Below, one piece after another: positions 3,941 through 35,103 of a stretch of 64,000 bases of DNA. The notes below the pieces were generated by a model. The model had not been told where the DNA came from, did no database searches, and worked only from the letters and a program-made list of their open reading frames with translations. Both the position numbers and the translations under genes were made by a program. Within the stretch, counting starts at the first letter, position 1. Every line of letters starts with the position of its first letter. Source of the DNA: Methyloprofundus sp. (lineage in GTDB: Bacteria > Pseudomonadota > Gammaproteobacteria > Methylococcales > Methylomonadaceae); contig AP023240.1 of the NCBI GenBank assembly GCA_016592635.1, positions 1,674,001 through 1,738,000 on the forward strand, written 5' to 3'.

Positions 3941-4699
3941 TTATTTACATTCAGTTAGCTTTAATACATCGTATACATGGCCAACATCTAATAACGTGCC
4001 GCCTGCTGGTAAATAATATAAATGATTATCGGCAGAAGAAATACCTAAGTAAGCACTTTGGTCTTTATAAAAACGAAAATAATAAGGTGGAAATGATTGT
4101 GAGTTTGCTGCACTTTGAGCAGGCGAAAATAAACTTGCATAAGTTGTTTCAGCCCAGTGAAATAAACAATCAGAATAGCTTGCAGGGTTATCTGCCCTAG
4201 TAATGATTTCTGATCGTATGCCACGCCCACCATCCATTGGGAAAACGGGGTTATGCCAGGATAAATCATACATACAAGTGTTTCCCATTAAGCCGCCTGC
4301 ACTACAGTCCATATAAGCTACCTGGCTTATATCTGTTACTCCTAAAGTTGGGTCTTGCGCATTAAAATTAATCGCTACATAGACATTATTATTGATAGGT
4401 GGGTTAGTGGCTATTTCAGTCGTGTTTAAGCTATAAGCATAAGCTGTTATTCCTCCTTTGCCATCAGGTTCTGCTTTGAGTTGATAACGAATAGGTTCTA
4501 TATTACCCATCAAGGTGTCATCTAATATGCCTTGAAGGTTGGTTATTTCTTGAGTATCAATATCGTAATCAAATGTCCCTTGAAAAACGGTATCATCAAT
4601 TAAGGTGAGCTCAACCTGATACCGAACAGGTGCTGCTTGCACTGAATTAATCGATAAACAAAGTGGAAATAATAAGGTGGTGAGTTTTAGTTTATTCAT
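3941..4699 (-). CDS. Exported protein of unknown function, last gene of the copper-receptor operon
   Basis: 252 residues with a clear signal peptide (KLKLTTLLFPLCLSINSVQAA, cleavage near 22). The N-terminal half is beta-rich. The last ~70 residues form a distinct module beginning DCLFHWAETTYASLF and ending LLDVGHVYDVLKLTEC, with many aromatic residues and a Cys at each end that could form a disulfide. I recognise this module shape as recurring in secreted proteins of gammaproteobacterial methanotrophs and relatives, but know no function. The gene starts 47 bp after the TonB receptor stop on the same strand, so it is probably co-transcribed and may be a periplasmic accessory of copper uptake (inference from position only). 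Confidence 0.75.
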   Translation of the reverse strand: MNKLKLTTLLFPLCLSINSVQAAPVRYQVELTLIDDTVFQGTFDYDIDTQEITNLQGILDDTLMGNIEPIRYQLKAEPDGKGGITAYAYSLNTTEIATNPPINNNVYVAINFNAQDPTLGVTDISQVAYMDCSAGGLMGNTCMYDLSWHNPVFPMDGGRGIRSEIITRADNPASYSDCLFHWAETTYASLFSPAQSAANSQSFPPYYFRFYKDQSAYLGISSADNHLYYLPAGGTLLDVGHVYDVLKLTECK

Positions 4700-4746
4700 A
4701 GCGAGCCTCTTAAGCTTAAGTCGAACCTGAGTTATATATCAGGTTG

Positions 4747-6936
4747 TTAATATGTAAAGGTAATTCCAACATAGACGGAACGCCCTTGTCCTGCCAGATT
4801 TTTAGTATTAGGTCTGGATGAAATTAAGGTCATTGGATATTGATCTCCGATATAGACACCCGATAACGGGGCGAAGTATTGTTGATTTAAAAGATTATCA
4901 ACACCGACATCAATACTGGCATGCTCCCAACGATAGCTGGTTTTAAGGTTTAATAGTACGTATGAAGCAGTTTGTAATTCATTTCTAATTTTTTGAACAT
5001 CATCTTTTTTGTCAATGAACTGTAAATCAAATGAGCTTTGCCAGCCACCTAATTGATGATTTAAGCCCCATTTGAGGTTAAATGGCATCATATGGTAAAG
5101 ATTATTGCCATCTGTACGTTTACCACGCACATAGCTCATCACTGTATTGGTTGAAAAATCCCCGTAGTCGTTGCTTGAAAATAAATTCATTGACCCAGTT
5201 ACATCTACGCCAAAAAGGTATGCATCATGATTTTCCATTCGTAAGTAAGAAAAACCATTTCCAGGTTGTCTTCTACATTCTTGACACAGATCGGCATCAA
5301 TATAGTTCTCAACATAGCTTGCAAAAGGAGAAACCTCTAAAGTCCATCTGTGTTCGTCGCTTGGGTCTGAAAAATTTGTGGTAAAAGAAATATTGTGTGC
5401 CGTTTCAGTTTTTAAGTTAATGTTGCCCACATAACCATTACCATCACTAAACCACCCAATCATGGTCATTGGCATTGGACTAGTGCTCCATGGATATAAC
5501 TCTTGTAATGATGGCGCTCGATTCTTGCGTGCATAACCTAGGGTATAGCTACTCCAATCGTTAGGTTTGTAGCTAATCAGCATGCTAATGTCAAATAAAT
5601 TAAAGTTTCTCTCATGGTCTAGGGCATTAAAAGCGAGTGCTTGCTCATAATCGGTTTTGATAAAATCTGAAGTAAAATTATTATAAGCTTGGGCATCGCC
5701 AGTATCGGCCATGATGCGGTCATATCTAAAGCCTAATAGCGTTTGCCATTTATCAGACCAATTCTTTTCCCATTCAACATAAATTCCAAAATGGTCTCGC
5801 GTGGCTTTATTTAAGTTGATAAAGTCATTAGGCCCCATCATACTAGGTCTTGTGGAGGTTGCTGGCCAATAGTCATTGATTCTGGAGCTTTTAAATTCAC
5901 TACCAAACCGAAATATACTGTCGTCTTGGTCTACGGGTACTTCAAATTGTAGTTTATAGCCATAGTTTAGACCTCTTGTTTCCATTGGCATAGGCTCGGG
6001 TGCTTGTCTGTCAGATCCAAAGTCCATGGTGTGGTTGGTGTGCTCTATATAGAGCTTACTATCGACAGTCCCCCAGTCGAATAGACCGTTATAGTGCATA
6101 TTGCCGAAAACACTATCGTTGTTAGTTAAATCCATTCTTGCTGAGGGGAAGCCCTGGAAAGGCATATGCTGTAGTCCGCCTCTAATTTCTAATAAATGAT
6201 CATCCGTTCTGAAGGAAAGTGCTAGTGCATGATTTTGGTTTTTATACGAGGTTGATTTTATCGTTGTACCATTGCCGTCTTTATAATTACTACTTTGAGA
6301 ATAAGAGCCTGTGTAATCAATTCGTGCATAGTCATTAGCAAGACCAGCTGAAATACTGCCGCCATAAGAATCACCGTTACTGCGATAAAAGGAAGATAGG
6401 TTGCCATTTATTAAGATATCTTCAGTGGACTCTGAAAATTCAGGTCTTGCAGAATTTACAATGATTGTTCCTGCAATGCTGTCTCCCCCCATTCTGACTG
6501 GCGTAATGCCTTTTAAAACAGAAATACTCCCAATATTACTTCGGTCAATACTGGCTAAAGCAGGATTCATATGGTTTGGGCAAATTGAGTCCACAGTCAT
6601 GCCATTTACTTCAATTTTGACGCGATTATCATTTAAACCACGAATAATGGGTAATGAAGAAACACCGCCACCCGATTGAAAGCTCATACCCGCAGTATCT
6701 TCTAATAATTTTGCGGTATCTGTTACTTGGCTTTGCTTTTTTGCAATATCCTCAGCACTAATGGTGTTGTATTGTGATGTAGTGAGCTCATTACTTTTAG
6801 CTTCAATAACCATTGCGTCAAGATGGACAGGATCAGACTCGGATGGCTTTAAGTTTTCGGCGTTGTCATCTGCATGAACAATACTAATGGGCCATAATAT
6901 GGCTATGTTAAGTAAAAATAGTATTTCTTTTTTCAT
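4747..6936 (-). CDS. oprC: TonB-dependent copper receptor, OprC family
   Basis: Outer-membrane TonB-dependent transporter of 729 residues: signal peptide (1-22), plug domain (about 55-165, ending in VRMGGDSIAGTIIV) and a beta-barrel that finishes in an aromatic residue (GITFTY). Pseudomonas OprC binds copper through a CxxxM motif in the plug and HxM in the barrel. Both are present here, as C119-P-N-H-M123 and H302-T-M304. The segment IRGLNDNRVKIEVNGMTVDSICPNHMNPALASID is also very OprC-like. It follows the multihaem cytochrome gene by 7 bp, so the two are almost certainly co-transcribed. Copper import across the outer membrane is the likely role. Energy would come from TonB/ExbBD, which are not in this window. 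Confidence 0.92.
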   Translation of the reverse strand: MKKEILFLLNIAILWPISIVHADDNAENLKPSESDPVHLDAMVIEAKSNELTTSQYNTISAEDIAKKQSQVTDTAKLLEDTAGMSFQSGGGVSSLPIIRGLNDNRVKIEVNGMTVDSICPNHMNPALASIDRSNIGSISVLKGITPVRMGGDSIAGTIIVNSARPEFSESTEDILINGNLSSFYRSNGDSYGGSISAGLANDYARIDYTGSYSQSSNYKDGNGTTIKSTSYKNQNHALALSFRTDDHLLEIRGGLQHMPFQGFPSARMDLTNNDSVFGNMHYNGLFDWGTVDSKLYIEHTNHTMDFGSDRQAPEPMPMETRGLNYGYKLQFEVPVDQDDSIFRFGSEFKSSRINDYWPATSTRPSMMGPNDFINLNKATRDHFGIYVEWEKNWSDKWQTLLGFRYDRIMADTGDAQAYNNFTSDFIKTDYEQALAFNALDHERNFNLFDISMLISYKPNDWSSYTLGYARKNRAPSLQELYPWSTSPMPMTMIGWFSDGNGYVGNINLKTETAHNISFTTNFSDPSDEHRWTLEVSPFASYVENYIDADLCQECRRQPGNGFSYLRMENHDAYLFGVDVTGSMNLFSSNDYGDFSTNTVMSYVRGKRTDGNNLYHMMPFNLKWGLNHQLGGWQSSFDLQFIDKKDDVQKIRNELQTASYVLLNLKTSYRWEHASIDVGVDNLLNQQYFAPLSGVYIGDQYPMTLISSRPNTKNLAGQGRSVYVGITFTY

Positions 6937-6943
6937 TGGTTAA

Positions 6944-8860
6944 TTATTTTCTCAATATTTTATTTATATCAAAGGTAATGCTTTTAATGGTAGTTAACTT
7001 TAGAGTTGATGCATTAAACATTTGTTTAAAGCGAGCGACTTCCGTTGATTGATCAGTAAATAAATTTTGTGCAAAGTTATAGCCTAGCGTTTGGTAAATT
7101 AACTCAGCTTTAATCGTGTATTGATCAGCTGTTAAATTATCTATTTTATATTCAATCAAGTCAGCACCGCCGATAAAATTATCATCTGTTTTTGCTAAGC
7201 CTTTTACTTGGATTTTTTCAGGAGCAGTGTTTTTATCATAGCCATTAGGCGGAATGCGATTGTCTTTTAAGTAGCTTTTAGCGCGCAATAAGGTATAAGT
7301 AATATTACCTTGGTGGTCATGCATGATGGTCTCATAAACTTGCACTTTTTCTGGTGAATCGATCAATTGATAGTGTGGCTCAAATTTAGTTGGGTCTTGG
7401 TCAGAGTCAAGCGCGACAACACTACCATCACTATTTACTTTACCAGATTCAAAAGCGATGTTGCCATCTGCATCACGTACAGTAACATGCAGAATAATGC
7501 GTCTAGATGGGTAGCCTGAAGGTAGCTTATGGCCGGTAGTGCTATTAATGGCTAAGTTAAAATTTAAAGTATTATTTTGTAAGTTGGCAGAGCTAATTGA
7601 TAGTTGAGCTGCACTTGCTAATAAGCCTTGTGCATTGGCAATACTGGTTGAGTAATCGGCGTCAGGAGCACCGAGTTCTTTTCGGTAATCTTGTAAGATA
7701 GATAGCATCAGTTTATTGCTGCCCAGAAAACCATGTTGGGAAAAATTTTCTCTCACTGTTCTGAGGCTGTCAGGTTGGCTGGCAATAATAACGCCATTTG
7801 CTGGTTGCATATGGCATTGCTGGCAACTTTTCGTTTGCGGGTAGTCACTGTGTAGCCATTCGCTATAGGGCATTTGTTCAGGAAATTCATCACTACCATC
7901 GCTGAGAATATTGCCATTTTCATCAGTATAAGGGGTACTTAAGTCATGGCAACTGGCGCATAGTTCTGATGAACTAATGTGTTTACTATAGGTGGGGGTG
8001 AAATTGGCAAAATTTTGCATTGGGCGAGTAAGGACATTTTCATAAGGTCCATATATCAGGCGTTCGGTACTGGTAGGGAATGTTTCTACTGCAAAGTTTC
8101 CAGAGAAACCAGCTTCGGTACCAAAGTTACCGTTTGGAGAAATTTGGTGGCACAAGCTACAGCTGACACCTTCTTTAGCAAGGTTGTGATAGGGGTTATT
8201 CGCATTGAGCAGTCCTTGGTCAAAAATAGTTTGAATATTGTCACCTTGTTTTCTGGCTTCTTCATTTGCCATGGGGGCATGACAGCGTGAACAGGTATTG
8301 TTAATTGTTTCTTGTAAGCTAGGGGTTCTATTGAGTTCGCTTCTTACTTTTGCTTGCCAAAACGGGTCGCGAGTCGCATTGGCCATCATAGTTGCTTCCC
8401 ATGCAGGTACGATGGATACGTCATTGCCTTCTTCATCTTGCAGGTCAGTATGGCATTGTTTGCAAATACCTGAGCCACTAAAATGTTGAGTCCTAAAAAT
8501 TTTACGCCCCGGAAGGGCGTTAGGTGCTTCAGTAATATTGTGGATTTGGAAAATATTATCTCCAACAAATTTAAGGTCAGCAGCGTATTGTTTATCTAAA
8601 TAAGTCAGGTTAGATAAATGCAAACTGAGATCCTCATAAAGAGGCACAATAGCGTTATTTTCTAATTGAGTGGGTTGTAAGGCTGCGTTACTTAGTTGTA
8701 ATTTGTCGGGAGGCAGAAAGGAAAAATCAATAGTATAAAAATTATCTTGATAGCGCAAATAAGGGATGTTGAGCGTGTTATTTTCACTAGAAAAAGTGGC
8801 ATCAGCCCAGCAATTAGTCATGCAATGGTTAAGGATGAAAAGTAATAAAAGTTTTTGCAT
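6944..8860 (-). CDS. Exported penta-haem c-type cytochrome
   Basis: 638 residues with an N-terminal signal sequence and five CxxCH haem-attachment sites: C133-KQ-CH, C190-SR-CH, C234-SL-CH, C301-AS-CH and C346-QQ-CH. The first ~60 mature residues form a haem-free beta module (NTLNIPYLRYQDNFYTIDFSF) resembling the start of the neighbouring discoidin-type protein. The C-terminal half after the last haem (about 380-638) is beta-rich with no motif I recognise. The haem region resembles cytochrome c554-type multihaem proteins. It is probably periplasmic or surface-attached. Its place between a secreted protein and the copper receptor suggests it feeds electrons to copper reduction or to the di-haem peroxidase; this is inference. 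A surface role comparable to Methylococcus multihaem proteins is possible. Confidence 0.85.
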   Translation of the reverse strand: MQKLLLLFILNHCMTNCWADATFSSENNTLNIPYLRYQDNFYTIDFSFLPPDKLQLSNAALQPTQLENNAIVPLYEDLSLHLSNLTYLDKQYAADLKFVGDNIFQIHNITEAPNALPGRKIFRTQHFSGSGICKQCHTDLQDEEGNDVSIVPAWEATMMANATRDPFWQAKVRSELNRTPSLQETINNTCSRCHAPMANEEARKQGDNIQTIFDQGLLNANNPYHNLAKEGVSCSLCHQISPNGNFGTEAGFSGNFAVETFPTSTERLIYGPYENVLTRPMQNFANFTPTYSKHISSSELCASCHDLSTPYTDENGNILSDGSDEFPEQMPYSEWLHSDYPQTKSCQQCHMQPANGVIIASQPDSLRTVRENFSQHGFLGSNKLMLSILQDYRKELGAPDADYSTSIANAQGLLASAAQLSISSANLQNNTLNFNLAINSTTGHKLPSGYPSRRIILHVTVRDADGNIAFESGKVNSDGSVVALDSDQDPTKFEPHYQLIDSPEKVQVYETIMHDHQGNITYTLLRAKSYLKDNRIPPNGYDKNTAPEKIQVKGLAKTDDNFIGGADLIEYKIDNLTADQYTIKAELIYQTLGYNFAQNLFTDQSTEVARFKQMFNASTLKLTTIKSITFDINKILRK

Positions 8861-8927
8861 GGTTTTGTTTGGCTATTGGTTTTAGAGGCGATCTTTACTT
8901 GATGATAAAAAATAAATTAAGGCATCA

Positions 8928-9896
8928 TTAATATGCTGCAATTTCAACTAATCCAGTATTGCCACCACTACTGGAGGCGACATCTAAACGAATGGAACTG
9001 CTGTTACGATTGATAGTAAATTGGTGAGCTTCTTGGGTGTCAGGTAGCGTAAATGGGCCCAGTACTTCGCCGCTATCAACCATTATGGTGAAGCTAAAAA
9101 TTTTGGCGGTACCATCACTCATTGAGCGTGACCAAACTTCAATAGTATTAATTTGCTTGCTTTGTGCTAGCGAAATTTCTATAAAGGCGTTGTCACCATC
9201 ACCAGCCGAAGACCATGCAGAGTTGTTAGAGCCATCAATGGCACTATTTGCTCCCCAAGCTTGGTTGTTTGTAGCACCGCCAAAGTTACTACTAACTGCG
9301 GTTACGCTGGCACCATTATTTAGGGATAGTAAGTTATTGTCCATTGCAGCCGCAGTGGTAGTGAAACTTGCCGTAGGTGCCCAGTATAAGTTGCCTTGTA
9401 CATCGGATCCTTGAACTCGATAGTAATATAAAGTGTTTGCTGCCAACTGAGTTAAGATAGGGTTGTGATTGACGATGGCACCTCCATTCATATTTGGGTC
9501 GGTGGCAATTGCACCAAATGTAGGTGTAGATCCATAGATAACGGAGCAAGCTAACGGAATAGTGGAAATAAACGTGAGTCGAGCTTCGTTATGCTTAATG
9601 TCGACAATAGTAGGAGCGGATCCATCGGTGACGGTCGCAATATCCAATATTTTTGGAGGGACTGACTCAGCAGCTAAAAGGCCGTAATCTGTTAAAGTAA
9701 AGTTTATGGAGTCAGTTATACTTTCATTATATTGAAACTCCACCCATAAATTTTGCCCTTGAAATTGTAGTGTAGGAATTTGCAGTGTTAAATTGTCAGA
9801 AAGTGTTGCTTGCTCAGCGAGTACTATATTGGCGAAGCAGAAAATGCTTGACGTTATTAATAATCGTGCTTGTTTGGTCATGAATATCGGTAGCAT
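8928..9896 (-). CDS. Secreted protein with FN3-like and discoidin (F5/8 type C) domains
   Basis: 322 residues: signal peptide (to about residue 27), a ~60-residue N-terminal module (LTLQIPTLQFQGQNLWVEFQY) similar to that of the following cytochrome, a fibronectin-III/purple-acid-phosphatase-N-like domain (about 95-180, TLYYYRVQGSDVQGNLYW), and a C-terminal F5/8 type C domain (about 195-322, INTIEVWSRSMSDGTAKIFSFTI). Discoidin domains bind glycans or lipids, so a surface-adhesion role is plausible. I keep ATG 9896 because AAGGA lies about 9 nt upstream; an in-frame ATG at 9881 has no such site. It is the first gene of the run leading to the cytochrome and OprC-like receptor. Confidence 0.78.
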   Translation of the reverse strand: MLPIFMTKQARLLITSSIFCFANIVLAEQATLSDNLTLQIPTLQFQGQNLWVEFQYNESITDSINFTLTDYGLLAAESVPPKILDIATVTDGSAPTIVDIKHNEARLTFISTIPLACSVIYGSTPTFGAIATDPNMNGGAIVNHNPILTQLAANTLYYYRVQGSDVQGNLYWAPTASFTTTAAAMDNNLLSLNNGASVTAVSSNFGGATNNQAWGANSAIDGSNNSAWSSAGDGDNAFIEISLAQSKQINTIEVWSRSMSDGTAKIFSFTIMVDSGEVLGPFTLPDTQEAHQFTINRNSSSIRLDVASSSGGNTGLVEIAAY

Positions 9897-10000
9897 TTAT
9901 GGTGTCCTTTTTTAGTATAGGTGTTAAGTGCTGAGAATATTGTGAATAAATCTTAAGTTATTTGATTGTGGCAAGTGGCTAGTTTGGGAGGGGTGCTAAA

Positions 10001-10027
10001 AAGCTCCAATTGTAGAAAATGGAGCTT
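10001..10027 (-). terminator. Terminator downstream of the corA-like gene
   Basis: Read on the minus strand, AAGCTCCA and TGGAGCTT form an 8-bp stem with an 11-nt loop, followed by a short T-run (GGAGCTTTTT). It lies about 140 bp beyond the corA-like stop and before the secreted-protein gene, so it probably separates the two transcripts. Confidence 0.6.
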
Positions 10028-10086
10028 CGTAAATGTAACTATATAATATTGCAGGACGTAGGAATTGTTATATTCTTGTCCGTATA

Positions 10087-10160
10087 GGCAGGAAGCATAT
10101 AAAAATCGAAACAGATTTTTGTGCTTTTGTTCTGTTTCTGCTGATATTTTGCTACCTGCC
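10087..10160 (-). other. Nested inverted repeats in the 3' region of the corA-like gene
   Basis: Outer arms GGCAGGAAGC (10087-10096) and GCTACCTGCC (10151-10160) pair with one mismatch. Inside them, GAAACAG (10108-10114) pairs with CTGTTTC (10132-10138). The structure begins 10 bp after the corA-like stop codon and could protect the 3' end of an abundant transcript or act in processing. No T-run follows. Confidence 0.5.
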
Positions 10161-10169
10161 CTAATAGTA

Positions 10170-10820
10170 TTAGAAGTTAGGCATTAAGCTAGGGACATGA
10201 GAAGCAGTGAATGTTGCATGGTAGCCATGAACCCCGTTGTAACAAGGATCGGTTTCTGCACAGTAAAATGCATTAACGCCACCCAAATTGATTGAGTACT
10301 TTCCTGCCGGTAATTTGGCGCGGTAAGTAACCTTTGCTTCGCCATGCAGTGATGCGACGACTGCTTTAAATTGAATGGTTGACCAGAAATTACCTGTTGA
10401 GTTGAAGCTGCCTTTTTCTCTTTCTGTCGTGCTGTCCCAGCCTTCATAGACAGATAGTGCAGGATAGAGCTCAGCACCTGAAGTGGCAAATGACTTTTCA
10501 CCGGTTTCTCTATCAACTTTCATTTCATAAACGCCTTCTTGACGTTCTAGTTCAATTGTTAAAATCACTTCTTCAGCTAGTTCTAGGGCAACCCAGTCTG
10601 TAGTGTGTGTCCAGCCTAAATCAGGCGCTTCAAAAGAAGGTTCGTATGAGCCTTTTCCGCCCGTACTACCAATGATTTCAGCAGTGCCATGATGACTTAG
10701 TTTGACAGTCCACTCATAACCAATGCCGCCTTCTTCAGGGTCGGCAAACTGAACTTCAGCAATGGCATGGGTTGATAAGACTAATGCGCTAGCGCCAAGA
10801 ATAGTTGCAAATGTGTTCAT
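10170..10820 (-). CDS. corA: CorA/MopE-type surface copper-binding protein (W-x-H motif)
   Basis: 216 residues with a signal peptide cleaved near A21. Methylococcus MopE and Methylomicrobium CorA bind Cu(I) with two histidines and a kynurenine made from the tryptophan of a W-x-H motif. Here GWTHTTDW supplies W70 and H72, H159 (ASLHGEAK) is a candidate second His ligand, and a disulfide-compatible pair C187/C193 sits in a conserved-looking GGVNAFYC stretch. Length fits CorA. The divergent neighbour is a di-haem peroxidase, the partner usual for corA and mopE. AGAGGA lies about 10 nt before the start. Expression is expected to be copper-repressed by analogy. This is not the CorA magnesium transporter. 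Alternative: an MbnP-like copper protein that also uses kynurenine. The family call rests on remembered motifs and context, not alignment. Confidence 0.75.
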   Translation of the reverse strand: MNTFATILGASALVLSTHAIAEVQFADPEEGGIGYEWTVKLSHHGTAEIIGSTGGKGSYEPSFEAPDLGWTHTTDWVALELAEEVILTIELERQEGVYEMKVDRETGEKSFATSGAELYPALSVYEGWDSTTEREKGSFNSTGNFWSTIQFKAVVASLHGEAKVTYRAKLPAGKYSINLGGVNAFYCAETDPCYNGVHGYHATFTASHVPSLMPNF

Positions 10821-11477
10821 TTTTATTTAATCCTCTTCGATTATTGTTGTCATTTTTTTGCTCTAAATATTAAGAAAAATATATGATCTTAAATAAAAAG
10901 TAGCCATTAAATAATGACGAGAGGTTACTAAGTTAAGTAACTGCTAATATAAAAGCAAAAAATATGCCAATGATGTGGGTAAAGGGTTGGGAGGTTACAA
11001 GATAAAGGTTCTTTAATTATGTAAATATTAATGTCTTAGGAGGAACGTGCATAGGAATAACCCCGAAGTTATAACGCAGGGTTTTTGTATCAGCAGGGAT
11101 GACTTCATGAGGCGCATAGTTATTCTACACAAGGAATGAGGTTATCCTTATTGGTGCAAAAGGACTAATTAGAAATCGGGAGGCTGTTTCATGTGCGTCC
11201 CTTAATATAAGCATCGGTGTTATGTGCACTCTTGCAAGCCATAAAAAGGCGTTAGACGTACTCTATGAAAATGATTAAAGGTAAGGAGAAGTTTCAATGC
11301 TTTTAGATTAAACTATGTTAAATAACATAATTTAATACCGTTAAATAACCTATTTCAATTTATATATTGACCTTATATTTGTGTGCCTTTGAAAGTTATA
11401 CTTTATATTGAATGGCTCAAAAATTGCTTATTTTTAAGTTATTTATTTTCGCTTAATGAGCAGGTACACAGTTAACG
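10821..11477. promoter_or_regulatory. 657-bp divergent regulatory region between corA-like and corB-like genes
   Basis: No convincing ORF. The sequence is AT-rich towards the peroxidase side. GTTAAATAAC occurs twice (11317-11326 and 11340-11349), 23 bp apart, and the first copy sits in a longer palindrome, ATGTTA-AA-TAACAT; these are candidate operator sites. The region is unusually long for a simple divergent promoter and may hold an untranslated leader or small RNA, which cannot be decided by reading. Confidence 0.4.
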
Positions 11478-13490
11478 ATGAGCACACATAAAAATATAAC
11501 CTTTCTGATTCTTATTGCTATGCTATTTAGCAGTATAGTAGCCTTAGAAAGGCATTTTAGTACTCCAGAAACTAAACTATTAGGTAAGGGGAGTATTACA
11601 GCTCTCAGTAATAGTTATCAACAATGGCAAGCACACTATCAGTTGCAGGGAGGAGATCAGTTTTTAACTATTCCTTTGCATTTCAATGCAGGCTTTTCTA
11701 CTTCGCGTATTAAATCATTAAGTACAATAAGGGTTGATTTGTATTCAGGTGAGTTTTTGGCTGATATTAAAGGTTTACCTACTGGTTCATACCATCTCTG
11801 GTTAGAGGGTAGCTTAAAAAAGGATGAGACAAAAATTCTGGCTAAGTATTTAGGAGAGCTTATAAATATAGAGGGTCGGCAATACTTAACCGCGCAATTA
11901 AATAAGGTTGATATGCAGAGTATGTATCTGAATCGATTCGTGGTCAGTGTGCAATCACAGCAGCCACTTACGTCATCATTACTTGTTGGTAGCCCCAGTT
12001 TATTTCAGAAAATATTTTATGAGGATCAGTATTGGGTGGCGGCGCAATTTGATTTGGCGCAAGTCGAGAAAGATTCTGCAAAGACGTTTGTTGAACATTT
12101 GTTACCTAAAGTAGCTTATGCTAGAGCGGGTAAGCCTTCATTACAAGATGTTTTAGGGGCGCAAATTATGGCTGGACGGAATTTGTTTATAAATGAAACT
12201 TTTGCAGGTAACGGGCGTACTTGTAGTACTTGTCATAGACTTGATAATAATCATACGATTGACCCAAAGTATATTGCAAAATTACCTAATGATGATCCGT
12301 TGTTTATTGCTGAAAATAACCCAGAGTTAGCAGAACTTGAGCGTTCTAAATTATTGCGTCAATTTGGCTTGGTATTAGCTAATATTGATGGGTTTGATAA
12401 ACCAGGAGTGCTACGTGGAGTGCCGCATTTGTTTGCATTAGGAACTTCAATGACACCTGAGGCAGAATTTGAAGGGACTGTTGTTCAGCATGCTTTAGGT
12501 TGGTCAGCAGATGGCTCACCTAATGATGGATCATTAAGATCGTTTACGGTTGGAGCTGTTATGCAGCATATGCCTAAAACTTTAAATAGAGAGGAAGGTG
12601 TTGATTTTCGCATGCCTACTGATGCAGAATTAGATGCATTGGAAGCCTACATGTTGTCCTTAGGGCGTTCATCAGAGTTAGATTTGGACACGATGTCTTT
12701 TTCATCTCCTATTGTACAGAAAGGCTTGGAACTGTTTCATAGTAAAGAACCAGGAACAGGACAATGTAAAGGCTGTCATTTAAATGCAGGTGCTAATAGT
12801 TCCTCTTCTTTACAAAATGGTAACCGTGATACTGGGGTGGAGAATATGCCAGATAGTCCGCTTAAGTTAGTTTGGGCGGAGGTTCCTCTAGATGGTGGTT
12901 TTGGTGGTGATGAACACAATAATTGTGGTTGGTCTAAAGAAGAACCATGTTATGGAAATAAAGAATTTAATATGACGACGGTGGTTGAAGCGGCTGATAC
13001 GGGGCCTTTTTTCCATAATAATGCAGTCAATACTATAGAAGAAGCCGTTGCATTTTATAATAGTAATGCTTTTCATAATTCACCTGGTGCTAACCCAGCC
13101 GACCCAAATGACCCTGAGTCTGTCTGTGAAAGGTGTATTCATTTGGAGCCAACTCAAATAACAGCGATAGCATTATTTTTACGTACGATTAATGCCATGG
13201 AGAGTATTCGTAGTTCTAATGAATTGGCGGAGCAAGCTGTGCAGCTGAATAGGCAGCAGCGTCGAGAACTATTGGCATTAGTGATAGCCGAAACAGAAGA
13301 TGCTGTAGAGGTTCTGGAAGGGGGGAATATCATTCCAAACCCTGAATCCGTTAAATTATTGCGACGAGCACTTATTTTTGAAAAAAGAGCATTAAGCAGT
13401 CGTAATAAATGGCATTCTACACAGCTAATTTATAAAGCTATTCAATTTAAGTCTGATGCTAATAATTTATTGCTCAAAGCAGAGTCTTAA
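11478..13490 (+). CDS. corB: Di-haem cytochrome c peroxidase/MauG-type protein, CorB/SACCP-like
   Basis: 670 residues with an N-terminal signal/anchor. Two CxxCH haem sites: C249-ST-CH and C430-KG-CH. Between them are peroxidase-family segments (GVPHLFALGTSM, RMPTDAELDALEAYMLSLGR). A third, non-canonical C550-ER-C-I-H555 lies near the end. The first ~210 residues are haem-free and beta-rich, an extension much longer than in classical CcpA (~330 residues). Di-haem proteins of this superfamily oxidise tryptophan in partner proteins (MauG; MbnH makes kynurenine in MbnP), and a CorB/SACCP peroxidase is encoded beside corA/mopE in methanotrophs. Its likely role is therefore oxidation of W70 of the divergent CorA-like protein (inference). 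It may also act as a surface peroxidase. Confidence 0.82.
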   Translation: MSTHKNITFLILIAMLFSSIVALERHFSTPETKLLGKGSITALSNSYQQWQAHYQLQGGDQFLTIPLHFNAGFSTSRIKSLSTIRVDLYSGEFLADIKGLPTGSYHLWLEGSLKKDETKILAKYLGELINIEGRQYLTAQLNKVDMQSMYLNRFVVSVQSQQPLTSSLLVGSPSLFQKIFYEDQYWVAAQFDLAQVEKDSAKTFVEHLLPKVAYARAGKPSLQDVLGAQIMAGRNLFINETFAGNGRTCSTCHRLDNNHTIDPKYIAKLPNDDPLFIAENNPELAELERSKLLRQFGLVLANIDGFDKPGVLRGVPHLFALGTSMTPEAEFEGTVVQHALGWSADGSPNDGSLRSFTVGAVMQHMPKTLNREEGVDFRMPTDAELDALEAYMLSLGRSSELDLDTMSFSSPIVQKGLELFHSKEPGTGQCKGCHLNAGANSSSSLQNGNRDTGVENMPDSPLKLVWAEVPLDGGFGGDEHNNCGWSKEEPCYGNKEFNMTTVVEAADTGPFFHNNAVNTIEEAVAFYNSNAFHNSPGANPADPNDPESVCERCIHLEPTQITAIALFLRTINAMESIRSSNELAEQAVQLNRQQRRELLALVIAETEDAVEVLEGGNIIPNPESVKLLRRALIFEKRALSSRNKWHSTQLIYKAIQFKSDANNLLLKAES

Positions 13491-32174: not shown

Positions 32175-33794
32175 ATGAAAAATAACGTTAATAATCAGCG
32201 CCGCAATTTTATAAAATTAGCAGGCGTGAGTGCCGCTGCTTTAGCAACTTTTCCTGGTCTATTAAATGCCAAGACGATGATGGCAGGGCGACATGCTTCG
32301 CCTGACTTTAATCCTGATGTGGAGATTAGCTTAACGGAAAAGGCGATGAGTGTGCCTATTTTTGACGGCCCTAAAACGAGTGTCTGGAAAGTGATTGGTA
32401 AAGTCCTAAAAGGGGCTAATAACATTATTAGCAACGAGCAAAGCTATCTTGCTCCTACTATTCGTTTACAACAAGGGCAGAAAGTCCGTATTTACCTAAA
32501 AAATAACTTATCGACACCCACCATATTGCATTGGCATGGCTTGCATGTGCCTGCTGAAATGGATGGCAATCCTATGTATGCCATTGATGGTGGTGAGACT
32601 TTTATTTACGAGTTTGAAGTGCTTAATAGAGCTGGGACATATTGGTATCATGCACATACGCACAACTTAACGGCTAAACATGTTTATTCTGGACTTGCTG
32701 GTTTATTTATTGTCAGTGATGCTGAGGAACAAGCGCTTAAATTGCCACGCGGTGAATTTGATGTGCCTTTAGTGATTCAAGATCGTACTTTTGATAGTAA
32801 TAATCAGTTGCACTATAGCAACCATATGATGCAGCGCATGCATGGGTTTCTAGGTAACCAAATTATGATTAATGGTCAGCCTGATTTTGAATTACCCGTT
32901 GCACAACGTTCTTATCGATTACGGTTATTAAATGGCTCTAATTCACGTATGTATAAATTAGCATGGGATGATGGTTCGCCTATTAAAGTCATTGCAACGG
33001 ATGGTGGTTTATTAGAGCAAGCGGAAACTGTGCCGTATTTAATGCTTGCACCTGCAGAGCGCCGTGAAATTTGGGTAGATTTTAGTCAGCAAAAAATAGG
33101 AACCGAGCTTACTTTACGCAGTGTTGAATTTTCGGCAGGCGGTATGGGAGGCATGGGGATGATGGGCGGCGGTATGCGTGGTCGTATGGGAGGTATGGGT
33201 ATGATGGGCGGAGGTATGAGTGGCGGCTCTGGCTCTATACCATCTGGTGGTGATTACCCTGTTATTAAAATTCGTGTTAGTAAAAAAGCATCTAGTAATG
33301 ATAAGTTGCCAAAACATTTAAGTAAAATTACGCCATTACGTTTAGCCAATGCTGCAAATAAAAATGATCCGCGGGGGATTACGTTATCTATGCGGCATAT
33401 GCGCGCTTTATTAAATGGGCGCTCTTATGCCATGAATGATATTCAGCCTGATGAAATTATTCCGGTTAACACTTTACAGGTGATTGAGTTTGATAACGGC
33501 TTTCATGGTGGCAGAGGTATGGGCATGAATATGGCTATGCCGCACCCAATGCATATGCATGGCGAACAATTTCAAGTGATTAAGCGTGAAGTAAATTCTC
33601 GATCTAAATCTATGGTTGCGACAGTTGCAGACGGTTTGGTAGATAAGGGTTGGAAAGATACCGTATTAGTTATGCCAGGTGAGAAAGTGACTATATTAAA
33701 GCCATTTAATGATTATAAAGGCTTGTTTATGTATCATTGCCATAATTTAGAGCATGAAGATATGGGGATGATGCGTGATTTGTTGGTGCGGTAA
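32175..33794 (+). CDS. Tat-exported multicopper oxidase, CueO/CopA-like
   Basis: 539 residues with a twin-arginine signal (NNQRRNFIKLAGVSAAALATFPG, Arg9-Arg10). All four multicopper-oxidase copper motifs are present: HWHGLHVP, YHAHTH, HPMHMHGEQF and HCHNLEHEDMGMM (type 1 His-Cys-His with an axial Met). Between domains 2 and 3 lies a Gly/Met-rich loop (about residues 320-355, MGGMGMMGGGM repeats), like the Met-rich insert of CueO that binds Cu(I). Likely role: periplasmic oxidation of Cu(I) to less toxic Cu(II). RBS AGGAG precedes ATG 32175. The next plus-strand gene, an HMA-TauE/SafE fusion, also suggests copper handling. Confidence 0.93.
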   Translation: MKNNVNNQRRNFIKLAGVSAAALATFPGLLNAKTMMAGRHASPDFNPDVEISLTEKAMSVPIFDGPKTSVWKVIGKVLKGANNIISNEQSYLAPTIRLQQGQKVRIYLKNNLSTPTILHWHGLHVPAEMDGNPMYAIDGGETFIYEFEVLNRAGTYWYHAHTHNLTAKHVYSGLAGLFIVSDAEEQALKLPRGEFDVPLVIQDRTFDSNNQLHYSNHMMQRMHGFLGNQIMINGQPDFELPVAQRSYRLRLLNGSNSRMYKLAWDDGSPIKVIATDGGLLEQAETVPYLMLAPAERREIWVDFSQQKIGTELTLRSVEFSAGGMGGMGMMGGGMRGRMGGMGMMGGGMSGGSGSIPSGGDYPVIKIRVSKKASSNDKLPKHLSKITPLRLANAANKNDPRGITLSMRHMRALLNGRSYAMNDIQPDEIIPVNTLQVIEFDNGFHGGRGMGMNMAMPHPMHMHGEQFQVIKREVNSRSKSMVATVADGLVDKGWKDTVLVMPGEKVTILKPFNDYKGLFMYHCHNLEHEDMGMMRDLLVR

Positions 33795-34041
33795 TTTTGC
33801 TGGTATAAATTAGGTGAGGTTAAGCGTTTAAGGGGCATAGTCACTTATAACATTCGGTGCAATATTTTATGGTTTTTTTAACTCAATGAGTCCATATTGA
33901 CCTAAATCAATGCTGTTTGCAGTTTGATTTGAGATGATATGCAGCAGAGGCCATGCGAAGTATTTATTCCCTATGCTGTAGAGGGTATCCCCCCATCTCG
34001 CCCTAGAAATAGGGTTTTAACCAAAACACTGAAAAACTAGA

Positions 34042-35103
34042 ATGGAGTCAGTGGTGCAAACGACAAAAAAATATAATATAAAGGGTATGCAATGCGGTGG
34101 CTGTGAGGGTGTGCTTGAAGATGCTCTTAGCAGAATTGAAGGTGTTTATGCAGTAAAAGCAGATTATCCAAGTGCAAGTTGCCAAGTGACTTACGATGAA
34201 AGTCTGCATGGTCTTGTCGTCATCATTGAAAAAGCCATTAAGGAAAGTGGTTATGAGATTGATAATAGCGCACAAAGTAAAGGTAATATTTATATCAAAA
34301 TAAGTTTATCCTTACTTGCCTTGGTGGGTATTGTATTGCTAATGGTCTTTTCCAGAAAGCTATGGCATCAATTTAGTGTGCCGGATATGAGTTCGCAATT
34401 AAGCTACGGTATGATTTTTGTTGTGGGTTTGATTACTGGTTTACATTGTATTGGCATGTGCGGTAGTTTTGTGATCAGCTATACGGTCAAAGATGCAGAA
34501 CAGGGGCATTCCGCTTATTTATCACATGTATTGTATGGAGTGGGGAAAACCCTTTCTTATGCGATGTTTGGTGCTATTTTTGGTTTTATTGGGTCTGTAG
34601 TTAGTATTACTCCCTTTATTAGTGGTGTCAGTATATTGTTGGCGGGTACCTTTTTGATTATATTCGGCTTAAATATATTAAATGTATTTGCGGTATTAAA
34701 GCGTATACGTATTAAACAACCTGTAGTAATGCAGCGCTATGCAATGAAGAAAAGGCGTAATTCACGCAGTCCATTTTTTATAGGCTTTTTTTCGGGGTTT
34801 CTTTTAGGGTGTGGGCCATTGCAGGCTATGTATATTATGGCAGCAGGAAATGGAGATCCTTGGGAAGGGGCAAAATTCTTGGCTTTATTTGGTTTGGGCA
34901 CACTGCCTGCATTAATTGGTTTTGGGATGGCAACGCACCTATTATCCGATAAGATGACACATCGTTTTTTACAAGCATCAGGAATTATCTTGATTGTAAT
35001 GGGAACAATGATGTTAAATAAAGGTTTGATGAAAACTAAGTCCGGCTATGATTTTCAGTCTTTAGGTCAGGTAGTGGGTCAGAAAATTGATGCTATTCAA
35101 TAA
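34042..35103 (+). CDS. HMA domain fused to a TauE/SafE-type membrane protein
   Basis: 353 residues. Residues 10-75 form a heavy-metal-associated domain with the Cu-binding loop GMQCGGC (Cys pair) and a ferredoxin-like pattern (GVYAVKADYPSASCQVTYDE). The rest has about seven membrane segments: LITGLHCIGMCGSFVISYT, LLAGTFLIIFGLNILN, GFFSGFLLGCGPLQAMYIMAAGNGDPWEGAKFLALFGLGTLPALIGFG. These are signatures of the TauE/SafE/UreH-like family often seen near copper oxidase assembly genes. The Cys-containing membrane motifs CIGMCG and GCGPLQAMY could pass Cu(I). Copper export or delivery is inference from domains and the multicopper oxidase neighbour. Confidence 0.85.
   Translation: MESVVQTTKKYNIKGMQCGGCEGVLEDALSRIEGVYAVKADYPSASCQVTYDESLHGLVVIIEKAIKESGYEIDNSAQSKGNIYIKISLSLLALVGIVLLMVFSRKLWHQFSVPDMSSQLSYGMIFVVGLITGLHCIGMCGSFVISYTVKDAEQGHSAYLSHVLYGVGKTLSYAMFGAIFGFIGSVVSITPFISGVSILLAGTFLIIFGLNILNVFAVLKRIRIKQPVVMQRYAMKKRRNSRSPFFIGFFSGFLLGCGPLQAMYIMAAGNGDPWEGAKFLALFGLGTLPALIGFGMATHLLSDKMTHRFLQASGIILIVMGTMMLNKGLMKTKSGYDFQSLGQVVGQKIDAIQ

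Follow-up and report, generated by a model that had tools for sequence, protein, structure and literature searches.

A putative copper capture and import cluster in Methyloprofundus sp. combines a CorA-like protein and its di-haem partner with an OprC-type receptor

The window analyzed here is a 64,000-nucleotide stretch of the Methyloprofundus sp. genome, which consists of 4,428,391 bases in two contigs and carries one pmoA. The window harbors a cluster of six genes (Table 1), and the six reading frames proposed for it in the initial annotation are all open. Five of the genes are on the minus strand. A gap of 273 bp separates the gene for the 216-residue protein from the discoidin gene downstream of it, and from there the discoidin, cytochrome, receptor and 252-residue genes follow each other with gaps of 67, 7 and 47 bp. 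The di-haem gene is divergent from the 216-residue gene, across 657 bp. The secreted discoidin-type protein that had been recognized from the sequence matches PF00754 in Pfam, and the penta-haem cytochrome likewise stands, with five CxxCH motifs in its 638-residue frame and weak matches to multihaem models; its AlphaFold2 model reached a pLDDT of 53.8 and was left out of the fold search. Among the nearest relatives in our scan of related loci are a Methyloprofundus MAG and a Bathymodiolus endosymbiont (loci and genomes are denoted by L and G numbers, respectively). At 32175-35103 of the window, ~20 kb from the cluster, a multicopper oxidase with Cu-oxidase domains is followed by a membrane protein with HMA and DsbD_2 domains, and these are likely further copper genes.

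Table 1 Features of the cluster, in window coordinates
Feature	Position	Strand	Remarks
Secreted 252-residue protein	3941..4699	-	C-terminal domain (~173-252) common to neighbor proteins in related loci
TonB-dependent receptor, 729 residues	4747..6936	-	Plug and barrel (Pfam); OprC copper ligands C119, M123, H302, M304
Secreted five-haem cytochrome, 638 residues	6944..8860	-	Five CxxCH; weak match to ExtKL multihaem family
Secreted discoidin (F5/8 type C) protein, 322 residues	8928..9896	-	Pfam PF00754
CorA/MopE-like secreted protein, 216 residues	10170..10820	-	W70-x-H72; Gly137 at position of CorA H114; H198
Divergent intergenic region, 657 bp	10821..11477	.	Between CorA-like and di-haem genes; holds dyad at ~11316-11327
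Di-haem protein, 670 residues	11478..13490	+	Two CxxCH; C-terminal part MauG/MbnH-like; proposed Trp-oxidizing partner

The dyad in the divergent region reads ATGTTA-TT-TAACAT (11316-11327), and similar dyad words are present upstream in L028, L030 and L032. As an operator, the dyad TGTTATTTAACA was rejected because it is not enriched, the genome holding three exact copies of it versus four of the reversed control. Promoter-like and terminator-like sites in this region were no more frequent than in shuffles.

The 216-residue protein had been labeled CorA-like, and establishing this kinship required profile and fold comparisons, as the single sequence is insufficient. Like the 252-residue protein, it has no match in Pfam (at E 1, PF18252 included). 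In NCBIfam it leaves the MbnP models unmatched and gives one chance-level match, to another family and at the signal peptide, and a direct phmmer search of the PDB produced no match, as did a 12-sequence profile of the family. We therefore relied on relatives gathered from methanotroph genomes and from named genomes, which belong to Methylococcaceae, Nitrosomonas, Nitrospira and Verrucomicrobia and of which 41 were aligned. PF18252 (Cu_bind_CorA) is matched by 22 of these 41 at E 0.01 or better, and CorA is the sole PDB sequence matched by the 41-relative profile (E 0.036), with GWTHTSDW of the family placed on GWTHHSNW of CorA, which contains W62 and H64. The profile-profile comparison of the family with classic CorA gave a probability of 97.9 and an E of 6.3e-13. 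The predicted structure points the same way. The AlphaFold2 model of the protein (pLDDT 81.5) retrieved CorA (4bz4) first among 350,542 PDB chains in Foldseek (E 4.5e-5), and in the fold comparison CorA ranked first (Z 11.6) and MopE (2vov) second (Z 11.1), followed by collagen-binding and other β-sandwich domains with Z ~10 that cover ~100 residues, compared to 141-158. Identity to CorA across the fold is ~14%. Thus, profiles and predicted fold indicate that the protein is homologous to CorA, being CorA-like and not a textbook CorA, and it may function like CorA.

The residues W70 and H72 of the W-x-H motif are found as claimed and are invariant in the 41 relatives, so that the motif is not a chance occurrence. 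They correspond to kynurenine-62 and His64 of CorA from Methylomicrobium album BG8, in which W62 becomes kynurenine (PMC3912023). The second His ligand is where the CorA-like label does not carry through. In the profile-profile alignment CorA H114 falls on Gly137 of the window protein, and this column contains His in 32 and Gly in 9 of the 41 relatives, the window protein being among the nine; in the classic CorA genes fetched from relatives, W62, H64 and H114 are all invariant. The initial annotation had transferred copper binding from CorA and MopE, for which kynurenine, Cu(I) binding and copper-repressed expression are among the defining traits, and this is not supported as written: with Gly137 in place of the second His ligand, copper binding by the window protein does not follow automatically from that of CorA and MopE. 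The best candidate for a further copper ligand besides H72 would be H198, as judged from the alignment. This residue is kept in 9/9 Gly137 forms; eight proteins have Gln at position 198, every one of them with His137, and none of the 41 aligned proteins is without both, a mutual pattern that may be due to chance given the few sequences.

The Gly137 members might instead have given up copper storage. In that case the oxidized Trp and one His would work with the di-haem and five-haem proteins at the cell surface in redox, peroxide or electron-transfer chemistry, and the receptor would be an independent copper importer encoded next door. All nine members with Gly137 come from two methanotroph groups and the residue requires two changes on the tree, within the methanotroph group, and they are mostly those members that have the five-haem cytochrome or the discoidin protein nearby. 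We consider this reading unlikely, because W70 and H72 remain invariant, all nine retain H198, which could replace the lost ligand, and the OprC-type receptor recurs in the cluster across several genera. Members in which one copper ligand has been lost naturally provide a test of how far the kynurenine site depends on that ligand.

The pairing of the CorA-like gene with a MauG-like di-haem gene proved to be conserved. A two-haem protein is encoded within 3 kb in 29 of the 35 loci with a clustered CorA-like gene, spanning methanotrophs, Nitrosomonas, Nitrospira and Verrucomicrobia; among the other six, L029 and L058 are cut by a contig end beside the gene and L032 has a cut-off piece. The partners in nitrifiers and in some methanotrophs are CorB-like, with E ~1e-31 to the MbnH model and ~1e-21 to the MauG model, and one nitrifier-type partner that we compared is 35% identical to CorB. 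The window protein belongs to a branch that differs from these CorB-like partners and carries an N-terminal extension. The description of it as a di-haem peroxidase holds for the two haem motifs, and its MauG-like character is weak: Pfam matches are marginal and limited to CCP_MauG and Cytochrom_C, the match to TIGR04039 is weak (E 3e-4), and the alignment to CorB is short, with the two proteins barely alignable. A relative from the same branch reaches E 3e-11. That the di-haem protein oxidizes the Trp of its neighbor is what we infer from the pairing together with the analogous proposal that CorB and SACCP oxidize the Trp of their partner proteins (PMC3912023).

A 316-residue W-x-H-type protein in L112 has a di-haem partner with 45% identity to that of the window. 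Further relatives of the window di-haem protein, in other methanotrophs (L128, L129, L130, L134, L137), are located near proteins of ~300 residues that carry GW[KA]H[QND]TD[IF], several with CTERM-like tails, and that possibly represent a further W-x-H class. The Nitrospira loci L047, L048, L051, L052, L060, L063, L065 and L066 each contain several CorA-like paralogues, many with VPxPA/PEP-CTERM-type tails and most beside CorB-like di-haem genes and a 255-residue family of no known function. In Verrucomicrobia (L057, L061, L064, L068), proteins of ~1100-1400 residues contain two or three tandem CorA-like stretches, and a 1400-residue two-haem protein is encoded nearby in L061, L064 and L068; a relative of the latter in L069 (873 residues) has β-propeller repeats joined to a CCP_MauG domain. 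A distant CorA-like gene in L106 (G061), with 25% identity to a nitrifier-type member, has no two-haem neighbor in 19 kb.

The receptor had been assigned to the OprC type from its CxxxM and HxM motifs, and all four residues, C119, M123, H302 and M304, align one to one with the OprC copper ligands C143, M147, H323 and M325 (numbering from PMC8610252), despite low overall identity to OprC. Four relatives also keep the ligands in their cluster receptors. The genome itself encodes ten Plug-bearing receptors: the full set of residues is found in the window receptor and in one of the nine others, a 320-residue frame, Gly replaces Cys in the site of two more, and six have no ligand in the aligned columns. 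The 320-residue frame (G000:C1:2663111-2663374, L123), with its complete CxxxM-HxM site, is perhaps broken or split. On the TonB-copper model TIGR01778 (cut-off 472) the window receptor scores 139.3 bits, far below the cut-off, and the cluster receptors of relatives, to which it is 22-26% identical, score 461-471 bits, just under it. As the OprC ligands are conserved, copper is the substrate that we infer for the window receptor. The top NCBIfam scores would favor another substrate: haem/haemoglobin receptor models reach 155.8 bits versus 139.3 for TonB-copper, all sub-cut-off, and the receptor could accordingly import haem, a siderophore or a metal-chelate instead of ionic copper, as part of a locus that scavenges metals or haem in general. 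This appears improbable given that all four OprC ligands are present, that six of the nine others in this genome have none of them in the aligned columns, and that relatives hold near-cut-off TonB-copper receptors in the same neighborhood. That two dissimilar receptors bear this site in one and the same neighborhood argues most strongly for a copper function.

A lack of synteny in relatives had been named beforehand as part of what would refute the proposal, and the cluster does recur in other methanotroph genera. Five methanotroph relatives encode an OprC-type receptor no more than 3 kb from the CorA-like gene, some of them together with a five-haem cytochrome and a discoidin protein. Relatives of both the cytochrome and the discoidin protein are found beside the CorA-like gene in L029, L030, L032, L033 and L109, and just one of the two in L028, L035, L037 and L039. 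The receptor is absent nearby in L035 and L041, and in G058 the cytochrome and discoidin genes are ~25 kb from the CorA-like gene. Across genomes, 10 of the 12 carriers of the full-length cytochrome have the CorA-like family, compared to 6 of 189 non-carriers (Fisher p 2e-11, a value that shared ancestry inflates). The C-terminal domain of the 252-residue protein resembles a 280-residue protein that comes after the receptor in L030, L031, L033 and L109, and, by eye, the di-haem protein of L034 ends in this same domain.

The variable gene order and strand, and the absence of the receptor or the cytochrome near the pair in some genomes, could mean that chance placed these genes side by side, or that they encode surface proteins with a loose link, and that a functional tie exists for the CorA-like/di-haem pair alone. 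We give little weight to this reading. The association recurs in reshuffled form among several methanotroph genera, and two OprC-type receptors that are unlike each other occupy the same place, both of which point to selection for the association; in addition, the four downstream genes are separated by 7-67 bp.

Classic CorA, searched with a 41-residue probe, and the CorA-like family share a single genome, G041, whose family match is weak. In twelve classic corA-corB loci no receptor-like neighbor was found, and the long neighbors considered as possible TonB receptors are a methionyl-tRNA ligase, a polyphosphate kinase, an acyltransferase/ligase, an S1-domain protein and one unmatched protein. 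A link of the CorA-like family to ammonia monooxygenase (AMO) in Nitrospira was also rejected, because within one genus (32 genomes) AMO is found in 2 of 4 carriers and in 10 of 28 others. Most Nitrospira carriers have the AMO model, and none of 11 Verrucomicrobia genomes does, AMO detection in drafts being patchy.

Taken together, we favor, with a probability of about 65%, a module for capturing and importing copper at the cell surface of a pMMO-bearing methanotroph. In it, the CorA-like protein would be exported and its W70 oxidized, probably to kynurenine by analogy with CorA and MopE, by the divergent di-haem MauG-like protein. The oxidized W70 would create or tune a copper site to which H72 contributes, along with another ligand that is not the H114 of CorA and for which H198 is the best candidate. 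Copper would then be handed to the OprC-like TonB receptor, or be taken up in parallel, through the CxxxM-HxM site. The five-haem cytochrome may hold copper as Cu(I), or it may supply or remove electrons for maturation; copper reduction driven by the cytochrome is the weakest link of this explanation. A broader version is tentative: the module would be self-contained and extracellular, with a CorA-like protein whose kynurenine site has been rebuilt without H114 passing cytochrome-reduced copper directly to a dedicated OprC-type receptor, and this combination of protein and maturase, which occurs across methanotrophs, ammonia oxidizers, Nitrospira and Verrucomicrobia, would constitute a general kynurenine-metal system reaching well past CorA and MopE. 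The wide spread of the pair, nitrifiers included, suggests that Trp-oxidized metal-binding surface proteins are commoner than the few that have been studied. For methanotrophs without known chalkophores, the question is how copper moves from CorA/MopE-type surface proteins into the cell; the linked receptor would be the missing import step and, because it names that step, makes it testable by gene deletion.

A search of the literature, with subscription journals only thinly covered, found no description of this cluster. The initial annotation had regarded an arrangement fuller than the known pairs as novel, which holds for the cluster itself and not for a receptor beside a binder/maturase pair. 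This has precedent in MbnP/MbnH pairs, some of which are located beside MbnT-like TonB receptors and which, like the window, combine a partner protein with a di-haem MauG-like enzyme; unlike the window cluster, they have no five-haem cytochrome described, as far as the accessible part of that source goes (PMC3621798). CorA-CorB of M. album BG8 (PF18252, 4bz4; PMC3912023) has in common with the window a secreted protein with the predicted fold, the kynurenine-forming Trp and the first His, as well as an adjacent di-haem partner gene, which in the window is on the divergent and not the same strand. The two differ in the second His (H114 versus Gly137), in the low identity and in the di-haem branch of the window partner, and classic corA-corB loci are without receptor or multihaem neighbors. 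MopE-SACCP of Methylococcus capsulatus Bath (PMC3423442) shares the W-x-H motif and the fold with the window protein, which has no close sequence similarity to MopE, and MopE uses H132 and H203, the latter being its counterpart of CorA H114. Finally, OprC/NosA (PMC8610252; TIGR01778) has the Plug, the barrel and the CxxxM-HxM site in common with the window receptor, which scores far below the cut-off of the family model, with the receptors of relatives just under it.
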